Source of the DNA: an uncultured Granulosicoccaceae bacterium
Lineage (GTDB): Bacteria > Pseudomonadota > Gammaproteobacteria > Granulosicoccales > Granulosicoccaceae
DNA: 64,000 nt
Assembly (NCBI GenBank): GCA_938003855.1
Contig: CALKXD010000098.1
Location: 16,975 to 80,974 of the forward strand
Direction of reading: 5' to 3'
Shown here: one piece after another, positions 37,926 to 42,435 of the stretch
Layout: each line of letters opens with the position of its first letter
How positions within the stretch are numbered: the first letter of the stretch is position 1
Program-made: the position numbers and the translations under genes
Notes under the pieces: model-generated
Told to the model about the DNA's origin: nothing
Database searches by the model: none
What the model saw: the letters and a program-made list of their open reading frames with translations, nothing else

Positions 37926-39443
37926 CTAGTGCGGGTAGCATTTCGGTTGCCGCGGGCATGCACCACTACGGGGGCAGATAACCCGCGCTTCATTCTCTAT
38001 ACCGCGTTCGAGCCAGGCGATATTGAGAATTTTCGCTATGCTGGTTAGTTCCTGCTTGATCGACTTTGGTATCATTGCCGACCCGCCACTGCCTCCACAG
38101 TGTGCTTTAAGCTCGGCCGCCAGTGCAAACGGATCCTTGCCCTGAGCGGCAATTGCCGGATTCATGTCGATACCTGCGCACAGCACCTGCTTGTTACCAG
38201 CCAGATCATCGACTTTCACTGACTCACAACAATAGATTCTGGATTCCATCCCTACATCCAGCAGGGAGATCTGTGCCGATGAATAAGACATCTCGGAATC
38301 TATCTTGCGAAATACCGCCCAGTGCTGACACGGATCCTGCACCATTCTCATGTTGCCCCATGGCAGCGGGATGCCATTTCCCCGATACACCGCATTCAGC
38401 TTACCTGGCGGGTAGGCATCAAAATAGTGCCAATGAGGATACGGTGATACCGCCGTCATTCTTCGCATTACGATAGAGGTCGAGACATCAACGTACTTGC
38501 CTATGTTCACCTCGTAGGCATGCTGTTCAAGCAAACGCCGGAACGGCACCTTGGGACACAGCAGAGCGGCTGCAAAAAAGCTGCATTCAAAGTCACGCCA
38601 TGCATGCATGATATCCTGAGCATCCACTGCACTCGACTGGCTCATATGATTGACAACTTCGCGAATTTCCTCGATCTGGTGACGTCCGGTGAGCATCACG
38701 CTTTTTAATCCATCACCGTTGTGCAGTATCTTATGGGCAATATAAACAGCAAGATCATACTTGTGCCGGACCGGCTGTTTTTTTAAAAGTTTGCTCAGGT
38801 GAATAGTGCCGGGCGCCTCGAAGAACGATCTCACCAGGAAATTCGAACTCACCCCGAGCCGGGTTAATTCTTCCTTGCGCAGTTTGTCGAACCACTTAAT
38901 TTTCAGCCCCAGTTTCTTGCATATAGATAACAGCGCATCAAGGCTAAGAGGCATTTCTTTTTTACCTACATCCTCCGCCGCTCTTTCTAGATCGGGAAAA
39001 TGATTTTGATTTCTCTCCTGATGGGCACGTATCAGCAGATGCGCAAACTGCCGGCCCGACGTCCCTGTTTGTGACAACATTTCAGGGATCGCAATCTGCA
39101 GTATCTCATTGGTGAATAAAAAACCCGGCTCAAGTGCCATACCGCTGATCCCGCCATGATTGCCACGATCAGGAACAATAGCCTCCTCTTCCGGGACATC
39201 ATCGAGAAACCAGTTAACGTCTTTCTGAAACACCTGCGCGATCACCTCGAGCATTTGTCTGCTCGGTGTGCGCTTACCGCGTTCGATCATCGACAGGTAA
39301 GACACCGAGGGCGCTACCTCAGCATTCACCTTGATGCAGCGCGCGGACAAGTCCTCCATGGTGAGCTTATTGCGCTTGCGCAAATTACGCACTTTGGTAC
39401 CCAGAAAGTGAGCATTTCGGATCATCGTGGTTTTGGTGTTCAT
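37926..39443 (-). CDS. XRE-family regulator of the ScfR/RamB type (DUF3612-like)
   Basis: 505 aa; HTH 'FLGTKVRNLRKRNKLTMEDLSARC...PSVSYLSMIERGKRTPSRQMLEVIAQVF'; Cys-rich C-terminus 'ICPRSGACPRQPKCYPH'; divergent to the aceA locus. Confidence 0.75.
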   Translation of the reverse strand: MNTKTTMIRNAHFLGTKVRNLRKRNKLTMEDLSARCIKVNAEVAPSVSYLSMIERGKRTPSRQMLEVIAQVFQKDVNWFLDDVPEEEAIVPDRGNHGGISGMALEPGFLFTNEILQIAIPEMLSQTGTSGRQFAHLLIRAHQERNQNHFPDLERAAEDVGKKEMPLSLDALLSICKKLGLKIKWFDKLRKEELTRLGVSSNFLVRSFFEAPGTIHLSKLLKKQPVRHKYDLAVYIAHKILHNGDGLKSVMLTGRHQIEEIREVVNHMSQSSAVDAQDIMHAWRDFECSFFAAALLCPKVPFRRLLEQHAYEVNIGKYVDVSTSIVMRRMTAVSPYPHWHYFDAYPPGKLNAVYRGNGIPLPWGNMRMVQDPCQHWAVFRKIDSEMSYSSAQISLLDVGMESRIYCCESVKVDDLAGNKQVLCAGIDMNPAIAAQGKDPFALAAELKAHCGGSGGSAMIPKSIKQELTSIAKILNIAWLERGIENEARVICPRSGACPRQPKCYPH

Positions 39444-39444
39444 T

Positions 39445-39482
39445 TGTAAAATTCACACTGTGTAATTTCTATTGTGAAATTA
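39445..39482. promoter_or_regulatory. Candidate operator: TTGTRAAATT direct repeat and TAATTTC-N6-GAAATTA inverted repeat
   Basis: ttgtaaaattcacactgtgtaatttctattgtgaaatta immediately upstream of the regulator ATG. Confidence 0.45.
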
Positions 39483-39548: not shown

Positions 39549-40736
39549 ATGACCGCAAATACCAACAAACCTATGAATTACACTATAGATTCTCAATTTG
39601 CCAACTTTGTCACCAAGGTGTTACAGCCGGTATCCGGTGTCGACATCTCCTCAATCTGGGACGATCTAGGCAAACGCCTGACACGCGACAACGACACGAC
39701 CGGAGCACCTGCCACCGGCACTGACGCTATATCGCTGTCAGACCCCAGACTCACACTACGCAGCCTTAATTCGCGCTGGGGCAGCCTGTATTCGGCCCTT
39801 TATAATGCGGACACTATTCCGCACAGCGCCGGCTTGAAGATCGGCCGCAAATACAACGCTGCTCGCGGCAAGCGCGTAACTGCCTATGCCCGCGACTTCC
39901 TTGATGCCACTTTTCCGCTGACGGAAGGCTCACATTCCGATGCGGTGTCCTATCTTGTTTACTTTCAGAATCTCATGGTCATTCTTGCCGATGGCAGCAC
40001 AGCCGGATTACGCAATCCAGCTCAATTTGTTGCTAAAAACGGCCCCAAAGACGACCCGGAATCACTCCTGCTGCAACATCAGGATCTGCATATAGAAATA
40101 CTTTTTGATCGCAATGGCGCTCGCGGCGCGCAGGATTTATCAAACATTGAAGACATTCAAATAGAGGCACCGGCCATCACTGCCCTGTCGCTCGAAGCTG
40201 AATCGCCAGAGCAAAAGTTCGCTGCCTATAGCAATTTACTGGATTTGGCTCAGGGCCGACTGACTTGCAGTTTTGATTCGAACGGCAGAAAAACCACCCG
40301 CCGATTAAATCGCTGTGTCCCGTACACTCTTAAAAACGGGGATGAAGCCACCATTAGTTGCACCAACGAGGCCGTTATCAGCCTGGATGAATCACGCTGT
40401 GAACTCGGCATGATTACAGACAGCGATGGCAATGCACTCGCACAATGGCGGGTTGACGCCGCCATTGCCTCGTGGATTACGGATAACTTTAGTCAGCCTC
40501 AATCGAGCATCAGCCTGACGATAACCCCCCGGAAAACCACCAAAGAATCGAACACTAGACAAAAGCAAACACCTGACGCATCAGTTTTACCCGCCGTTGC
40601 CGACACGCTGCCCACTCAAGTTAACCACACAACCAACAAGCGTGCTCCCGCAGACGCTACTGATAATAACAAAGGCGTGTATGCAGGCAATCCGGTCATG
40701 GTCGCTCTGCATCGTCACGGGTTTGCGCAGCACTAG
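39549..40736 (+). CDS. Malate synthase G N-terminal-half-like protein, catalytic C-terminal half absent
   Basis: 395 aa; 'LNSRWGSLYSALYNADTIPHSAG...ARDFLDATFPLTEGSHSDAVSY...LRNPAQFVAKNG...DLHIEILFDRNGARGAQDLSNIEDIQIEA...AYSNLLDLAQGRL...NGRKTTRRLNRCVPYTLKNGDE' collinear with the remembered GlcB N-terminal half; then a low-complexity tail. Confidence 0.65.
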   Translation: MTANTNKPMNYTIDSQFANFVTKVLQPVSGVDISSIWDDLGKRLTRDNDTTGAPATGTDAISLSDPRLTLRSLNSRWGSLYSALYNADTIPHSAGLKIGRKYNAARGKRVTAYARDFLDATFPLTEGSHSDAVSYLVYFQNLMVILADGSTAGLRNPAQFVAKNGPKDDPESLLLQHQDLHIEILFDRNGARGAQDLSNIEDIQIEAPAITALSLEAESPEQKFAAYSNLLDLAQGRLTCSFDSNGRKTTRRLNRCVPYTLKNGDEATISCTNEAVISLDESRCELGMITDSDGNALAQWRVDAAIASWITDNFSQPQSSISLTITPRKTTKESNTRQKQTPDASVLPAVADTLPTQVNHTTNKRAPADATDNNKGVYAGNPVMVALHRHGFAQH

Positions 40737-40836: not shown

Positions 40837-42435
40837 ATGAACAGCTACTCCAGTCATATTTCGCAAAGCGCAGAAACCATTAGCAAGCATGGCAATCAAT
40901 GGCGTGCCATCGACGCCGAGTATGTGGCACGTATGCGCTTGCAAAATCGTTTTGCCACCGGTCTGGATATCGCCAAACATACAGCCACAATCATGCGTGA
41001 AGACATGGCAGCCTACGATGCAGATCATGCGAAGTACACCCAGTCACTCGGTGTCTGGCACGGCTTCATTGCGCAGCAGAAAATGATTTCCGTCAAAAAG
41101 CATTTCGACACTCCGCGCGGCCGTTACTTGTATTTATCCGGCTGGATGATCGCCGCACTGCGATCCGAGTTTGGCCCCTTACCAGATCAATCCATGCACG
41201 AAAAAACCTCTGTGCCGGCGCTGATCGAAGAACTCTATACCTTCCTGAAGCAAGCCGACGCCAGAGAATTGCAGCACCTTTTTACCGACCTTGATAAAGC
41301 GCGAGCCACAGGCGACGAACTTGCTGCCAAAGCGACCACTGACAAGATTGATAATTTCGAATCTCATGTGGTACCAATCATCGCCGACATCGATGCCGGG
41401 TTTGGCAACGAAGAAGCCACCTACCTGCTTGCAAAGAAATTGATCGCTGCCGGCGCTTGCTGCCTGCAAATCGAGAATCAAGTCTCTGACGCCAAGCAAT
41501 GCGGTCATCAGGATGGCAAAGTCACCGTCCCTCACGAAGATTTTCTAGCCAAGATCAACGCCCTGCGCTACGCGTTTCTGGAGATGGGTGTCGACAATGG
41601 TGTGATCGTCGCACGTACCGATTCACTGGGTGCCGGGTTAACCCAGAAGATTCCGGTATCGCAGTCACCCGGCGATCTGGCAGACCAGTACAATGCTTTC
41701 ATTGCCGGCGAAGAAGTTACCTCTGCGGATCAGCTTGGTTCAGGCGACATTGTCATCCAGCGCGAAGGCAAAATGATCAAAACATCCCGCCTGCCAAACG
41801 GCTTGATTCAATTCAAACCCGATACCGGTGAAGACCGTGTCGTGCTGGATTGTGTGACTGCTTTGCAAAACGGTGCTGATTTGCTCTGGATCGAAACTGA
41901 AAAGCCGCACGTCGGTCAGATTGCCGCCATGGTCGACCGTGTTAAAGCGATCGTCCCTGACGCCAAGCTGGTCTATAACAACAGTCCGTCGTTCAACTGG
42001 ACGCTCAACTTTCGTCAACAGGTGTTCGACGCGTGGCAGGAAGCCGGAAAAGACACTTCGGACTACAATCGCGATGATTTAATGAGCGTTGACTACGACC
42101 ACTCTGCACTGTCCATCGAAGCCGATGAGAAAATCCGTGCTTTCCAGGCTGACGCGTCAGCAAAAGCGGGCGTCTTCCATCACCTGATCACCCTGCCGAC
42201 ATACCATACCGCTGCTCTGTCTACTGACAGCTTGTCGAAAAACTACTTCGGTGAACAAGGCATGCTGGCCTATGTGCTCGATGTGCAGCGCAAAGAAATT
42301 CGTGATGGCCTGGCGTGTGTGAAGCATCAGGATATGGCGGGTTCCAACATCGGTGATGATCACAAAGAGTACTTCAGTGGCGCTCAGGCACTGAAAGCTT
42401 CCGGTGAAGACAACACCATGAATCAGTTCGGTTAA
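40837..42435 (+). CDS. aceA: Isocitrate lyase (about 530 aa class)
   Basis: 'VVPIIADIDAGFGNEEATYLLAKKLIAAGACCLQIENQVSDAKQCGHQDGKVTVPHEDFLAKINALRYAF'. Confidence 0.95.
   Translation: MNSYSSHISQSAETISKHGNQWRAIDAEYVARMRLQNRFATGLDIAKHTATIMREDMAAYDADHAKYTQSLGVWHGFIAQQKMISVKKHFDTPRGRYLYLSGWMIAALRSEFGPLPDQSMHEKTSVPALIEELYTFLKQADARELQHLFTDLDKARATGDELAAKATTDKIDNFESHVVPIIADIDAGFGNEEATYLLAKKLIAAGACCLQIENQVSDAKQCGHQDGKVTVPHEDFLAKINALRYAFLEMGVDNGVIVARTDSLGAGLTQKIPVSQSPGDLADQYNAFIAGEEVTSADQLGSGDIVIQREGKMIKTSRLPNGLIQFKPDTGEDRVVLDCVTALQNGADLLWIETEKPHVGQIAAMVDRVKAIVPDAKLVYNNSPSFNWTLNFRQQVFDAWQEAGKDTSDYNRDDLMSVDYDHSALSIEADEKIRAFQADASAKAGVFHHLITLPTYHTAALSTDSLSKNYFGEQGMLAYVLDVQRKEIRDGLACVKHQDMAGSNIGDDHKEYFSGAQALKASGEDNTMNQFG

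Follow-up and report, generated by a model that had tools for sequence, protein, structure and literature searches.

Why would a bacterium keep an open gene for what looks like half of a malate synthase G (MSG, GlcB) beside its isocitrate lyase gene? In the window, as we call the whole 64,000-nucleotide stretch of DNA from an uncultured Granulosicoccaceae bacterium that was analysed, this gene occupies positions 39549..40736 on the + strand and encodes a stand-alone MSG-derived protein of 395 aa, hereafter half-MSG, whose position is conserved in relatives. The original prediction had described an intact reading frame, and the gene does run from ATG to TAG without a frameshift. Its placement between a ScfR/DUF3612-type regulator and aceA was likewise borne out: a divergent 505-aa regulator composed of an XRE-type HTH, an IrrE/M78-like domain and DUF3612 (PF12268) lies on one side (37926..39443, − strand), and a PRK06498-type isocitrate lyase gene, aceA, follows on the other (40837..42435, + strand; NF005074, E 7.6e-304 in the profile search), with 65-94% identity among relatives.

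Profile searches matched the half-MSG to PF20658 (MSG_insertion) over residues 102-177 (E 1.5e-25; 89.6 bits against a cut-off of 24.8), residues 62-311 aligned to MSG positions 120-373 in the NCBIfam MSG model (E 3.2e-53), and a sequence search recovered PDB MSG chains at E ~3e-41. The AlphaFold2 model reached a mean pLDDT of 83.8, with high pLDDT in the first segment of the insertion domain, and the Foldseek matches listed for it were all MSG, as were those listed for the isolated domain, among which no other fold hinted at a function. The relatedness of the half-MSG to MSG far exceeds chance. It had been characterised as the N-terminal half of GlcB, which holds for the homology, but the part retained consists of the complete alpha/beta insertion domain and some N-terminal elements rather than of that half as such. 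The first segment of this domain, which is the best conserved portion of the protein, spans residues ~104-210 (39858..40178, + strand; PF20658 = 102-177) and contains a beta-hairpin signature at residues 137-141 (VYFQN; 39957..39971, + strand); the second spans residues ~241-282 (40269..40394, + strand), and its counterpart, a piece reading FTAKDGxDYxL, is kept in Shewanella.

The half-MSG scored 181 and 173 bits against the curated full-length MSG models, well below their cut-offs of 565 and 989, and in an alignment with operon-encoded MSGs all four catalytic motifs VRNVGH, DEERRT, DRTGDEIHT and EDRATLRIS were absent from it, while the operon MSGs retained them. We take the corresponding catalytic residues of MSG to be R338, E427, D455 and D631, respectively. 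The half-MSG is thus predicted to be catalytically dead, and the MSG segment 'LDCEDSVAAVDAEDK' reads 'ALSLEAESPEQK' in it, as had been noted. The further suggestion that a tail had replaced the C-terminal half stands as far as the loss of the catalytic residues is concerned, but the tail is not foreign: its last ~20 residues are a degenerate copy of MSG ~533-555 ('PVMVALHRHGF', 40677..40733, + strand; predicted helix 382-389), and this was the best MSG window for the tails of nine half-MSGs (shuffle p <= 0.0005). As alignment with intact relatives showed that an N-terminal helix segment is also kept besides the match to MSG 120-373, these two outer traces point to a full MSG that contracted internally without loss of frame. 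By this comparison, the half-MSG is the product of in-frame internal deletions, and its C-terminal half was not swapped out.

The arrangement recurs widely. Scanning GTDB genomes with DUF3612 yielded 80 named loci, in which the slot between the divergent DUF3612 gene and aceA holds a full MSG of 722-737 aa in Marinomonas, Motilimonas, Algicola, an Alteromonadaceae bacterium and a Pseudomonadales bacterium. In Marinomonas phaeophyticola (L170:4692-6904) the operon MSG is read as two frames that overlap (325 + 435 aa), which reflects either a sequencing error or a new pseudogene. Granulosicoccaceae slot proteins measure 474, 472, 400-418, 362, 172, 137 or 110-126 aa, so that homologues are by no means all full length; the half-MSG gene and its order recur in several further genomes with a half-MSG, and shorter forms are carried by dozens. 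The nearest kin of the window is 'Chromatiales bacterium (ex Bugula neritina AB1)', whose regulator is 91% identical. Some 40 Shewanella genomes hold a domain of 166-195 aa in the slot with aceA not adjacent, and aceA is likewise not adjacent to the domain at most Vibrio-like loci and in several other genomes. In Shewanella sp. ANA-3, no PF20658 protein was found besides the stand-alone, and no MSG. A sample across the phylum (399 genomes) added stand-alones from four family groups, of which f184 appears Vibrionaceae-like and f194 Shewanella-like by genome layout.

Gains and losses around the slot are also seen. The domain gene is gone from a five-member Granulosicoccaceae clade (L122, L140, L146, L164 and L177), where the DUF3612 operator described below directly faces aceA; the operator is the same at these five loci, and a stand-alone domain was found nowhere in their genomes. 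In G064, DUF3612 adjoins aceB-aceA, and the MSG-subfamily model was unmatched there. Four large Granulosicoccus-like genomes (G028, G034, G036 and G045) carry two short-domain copies each, one by aceA and one by DUF3612, so that a link to aceA may exist. At these two-copy loci (L042, L043, L046-L048, L050-L052), the checked copies each have their own operator.

The genome of the window also encodes a full glcB elsewhere, as a search proposed with the original prediction confirmed (722 aa, contig C280). This resident glcB (L053:2124-4292) reads MEDCATLRIS where aligned relatives read MEDRATLRIS, an odd change adjoining the presumed catalytic aspartate. A grouping of the half-MSG with it, as expected for a decayed copy, was rejected (AU p 0.002). 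In a tree built on the insertion domain, half-MSGs and short forms alike nest inside the DUF3612-linked MSG clade (support 99/87). In the tree of the DUF3612 regulator, the Shewanella and Vibrio-like groups fall with the full-MSG operons, apart from the Granulosicoccaceae, and a single clade of all stand-alones was rejected (AU p 0.0005), two state changes being needed if DUF3612 and the slot gene are treated as travelling together; on the short domain alignment, a single origin was not rejected (AU p 0.20). By this reconstruction, the slot MSG has been reduced in parallel, at least twice: in Granulosicoccaceae from 730 aa through 474 and 400 down to 110 aa, and separately in Shewanella with related groups from 730 aa through 334 down to 170-200 aa. 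As L111 and L223, which hold the longest reduced forms (474 and 334 aa), branch basally in the two reduced clades, the trees suggest that the slot gene shrank by stepwise erosion within each. A third case is G213, whose 188-aa domain groups with its own operon MSG on a long branch.

Selection estimates were consistent with retention of the domain and showed strong purifying selection. For pairs with unsaturated dS, the omega of Shewanella stand-alones was 0.01-0.09, and Granulosicoccaceae stand-alones gave 0.11-0.16; between the window and L101 synonymous sites are saturated, so the omega evidence comes from relatives. The same pair is 76-77% identical in the first insertion-domain segment and the preceding stretch, 35-57% in the rest of the half-MSG, and >90% in aceA and DUF3612. 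Selection, as judged from these comparisons, keeps the insertion domain while the remainder erodes. A pseudogene test on the half-MSG found the frame open and omega << 1 in relatives. The label of a decaying paralogue therefore does not suit a gene under purifying selection that did not derive from the resident glcB and that separate lineages have kept after reducing it in parallel, and that the stand-alone has a function is well supported by these comparative data.

What unites the stand-alones is a DNA element. A putative DUF3612 operator of 36 bp, made of three direct repeats AATTTYACA with a 14-bp period, lies at 39446..39481 (− strand, 0 mismatches), separated by 2 bp from the DUF3612 start codon and placed 67 bp ahead of the half-MSG gene, and near-identical elements precede the DUF3612 start codon in Granulosicoccaceae, Shewanella and Marinomonas. 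Among the loci fetched, the element (<=2 mismatches) was present within ~400 bp upstream of 82/82 stand-alone genes, many of them closely related and hence not independent, and upstream of all 18 DUF3612-linked full MSGs; upstream of other, ordinary MSGs it was found in 0/47, even at <=5 mismatches. Twelve of the 82 stand apart from any DUF3612 gene, namely second copies in Vibrio-like genomes and G678, aceA-linked copies in the large Granulosicoccus genomes, G213, and one cut by a contig end; the promoter of the regulator itself can therefore not explain most of these twelve. A genome-wide scan of 13 genomes gave 1-3 sites each, most at DUF3612 or at stand-alone or linked genes, and a reversed control pattern gave 0-1 per genome. 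In Shewanella, the sole site at <=3 mismatches was that of the DUF3612/domain pair in two of three genomes searched. From its position and co-occurrence, we infer that DUF3612 binds the 36-bp site, and membership of the stand-alones in the DUF3612 regulon is well supported by its distribution.

The genome of the window has one further operator copy only, which precedes a weakly PanE/ApbA-like gene by ~74 bp, an arrangement repeated in the relative G012, and this gene is probably a second member of the regulon. Both 36-bp copies are perfect (G000 C139:26453-26488, L209:6954-6989; G012 C67, L210:6747-6782), the gene encodes ~361-371 aa with weak similarity to ketopantoate reductase, and the site lies ~74-90 bp upstream. 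In Shewanella canadensis (L212:6780-6815), a zero-mismatch operator precedes an RnfB-like ferredoxin gene, with a 1639-aa ORF next in line; this site may be a real target or chance.

The regulator and the domain also co-occur. All 15 tested stand-alone-bearing genomes of the phylum sample carried DUF3612, whereas it was missing from two genomes that have two full MSGs each but lack a stand-alone; the converse fails, with DUF3612 present without the domain at no fewer than six loci (>=6). It would thus seem that the domain relies on the regulator rather than the reverse. At residues 137-141, DUF3612-linked MSGs and most stand-alones share a hairpin that reads Y[YF]xH or nearly so; Vibrio-like copies carry a weaker version of it (DYRH), G213 does not have it, and in ordinary MSGs an xDG turn takes its place. 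Since the change is already present in full DUF3612-linked enzymes, this surface would have been specialised ahead of the loss of catalysis. A count of conserved DUF3612 sites that are altered in one clade alone was no higher for the domain-less clade than for control clades, and an interface can therefore not be read from this comparison.

Part of this family has been catalogued. The 190-aa subfamily NF006511/PRK08951 'malate synthase' corresponds to the Shewanella stand-alone (222-280 bits, cut-off 173), whose members resemble the half-MSG in domain, DUF3612 neighbour and operator; the half-MSG itself differs in scoring 140 bits over the 190 positions, below that cut-off, in being twice as long and in preceding aceA. 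The name implies an enzyme activity that would be impossible for the members, which suggests that the family is misnamed. With MSG (GlcB; NF002825, TIGR01345; E. coli 1d8c), the half-MSG has in common the fold, the homology over MSG 120-373, the N-terminal helix and the C-terminal trace, but it is without the C-terminal domain and without the catalytic motifs of the TIM barrel, at 395 versus ~725 aa. Although the stand-alone is thus catalogued, the literature searched, with subscription journals mostly outside its coverage, contained no description of stand-alone MSG domains and no mention of DUF3612.

The ScfR-family regulators RamB and PrpR exert CoA-ester/acyl-CoA-responsive control over glyoxylate and methylcitrate genes, and PrpR bears a [4Fe4S] cluster (PMC10370305, PMC6765138). 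DUF3612 resembles them in its XRE-type HTH, IrrE-like domain, cysteine-bearing C-terminus and glyoxylate-shunt neighbours, and the passages on RamB and PrpR describe no insertion-domain partner for either. It scored only 23 bits against the RamB model, however, where 700 are required, and its cysteines, C490-x5-C496-x5-C502 (99-100% conserved), depart from the ScfR/IsaR [4Fe4S] motif C-X2-C-X4-C. For the Shewanella aceBA operon, five regulators have been predicted, DUF3612 not among them (PMC3223726). A sequence search of DUF3612 against the PDB returned HTH domains only.

As every stand-alone found carries the same regulator-type DNA site, a regulatory partner is likelier than an enzyme. Enzyme-derived regulators are familiar as trigger enzymes and as Gal3/Gal80-type pseudoenzymes, in which a relative of a metabolic enzyme is recruited to regulate its own pathway; here, by comparison, it would be a non-catalytic insertion domain, excised more than once, rather than a full-length pseudoenzyme, that took on the putative regulatory role. 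In the scenario we propose, the ancestral MSG would have sat in a DUF3612-controlled glyoxylate-shunt operon, divergent from the regulator and ahead of aceA, and would have contacted the ScfR/RamB-like DUF3612 via its alpha/beta insertion domain, doubling as a regulatory enzyme. Another malate synthase would then have taken over catalysis, the catalytic parts of the operon MSG would have eroded, and the insertion domain would have been left as a small protein devoted to co-regulation, its expression driven by the DUF3612 operator so as to form a feedback loop. We give roughly even chances to the half-MSG being such a dead, excised operon MSG whose insertion domain docks on, or reports to, DUF3612. 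Weighing against it are the loci that have DUF3612 and no domain, the lack of an excess of altered DUF3612 sites in the domain-less clade, the domain copies kept with aceA, and the weaker or missing hairpin in Vibrio-like copies and G213. The general form of this idea, in which the MSG insertion domain is a regulator-docking module and the DUF3612-operon MSG a trigger enzyme from which it was excised in parallel as a co-regulator, we advance tentatively, at somewhat less than even. The physical partnership of domain and DUF3612 would be part of this scenario, as would the sign of the co-regulator's effect.

The stand-alone could alternatively be an effector of the DUF3612 regulon with a job of its own, such as binding a ligand or modulating an enzyme, that leaves the regulator untouched. 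The operator accounts for co-regulation without physical contact, and the regulator works without the domain in some genomes, but we consider this rather unlikely, since the sole Shewanella site at the pair would leave the regulator mainly in charge of one small protein, and the hairpin signature is older than the enzyme loss. Less probable still is a post-translational scaffold or modulator of isocitrate lyase (or malate synthase) in the glyoxylate shunt: although the Granulosicoccaceae gene usually precedes aceA in the same orientation, and each locus retains a domain copy where DUF3612 and aceA separate, adjacency to aceA is lost in Shewanella and most Vibrio-like loci, strain ANA-3 is without MSG, and an enzyme partner shared across lineages would need to be of differing types.

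A relic of MSG in decay, or a leader ORF that serves operon architecture alone, would agree with the fast-diverging flanks of the half-MSG and with lengths graded down to absence in one clade, but omega far below 1, frames open throughout, parallel retention of the same domain and autonomous duplicates with their own operator make this very improbable. A broken gene or assembly artefact, in favour of which no evidence emerged, can hardly be entertained, as gene and order recur in homologues, and no MSG C-terminus, frame-shifted or otherwise, was seen downstream, where aceA starts after 100 bp.

The co-regulator reading thus preserves the core of the original prediction, a pseudoenzyme regulating or scaffolding the glyoxylate shunt, in that the evidence agrees with a pseudoenzyme that descends from MSG and has a regulatory role. 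Its emphasis on aceA as the key neighbour was misplaced, because the constant associates are DUF3612 and the operator, and Shewanella and several others keep the domain without an adjacent aceA. To our knowledge, no role has been assigned to the alpha/beta insertion domain of MSG, and the stand-alones would offer a lead on its purpose. They would also provide a stepwise example of an enzyme whittled down to a regulator-linked domain, and, in Shewanella and other culturable laboratory bacteria, a simple predicted regulatory pair together with its DNA site.
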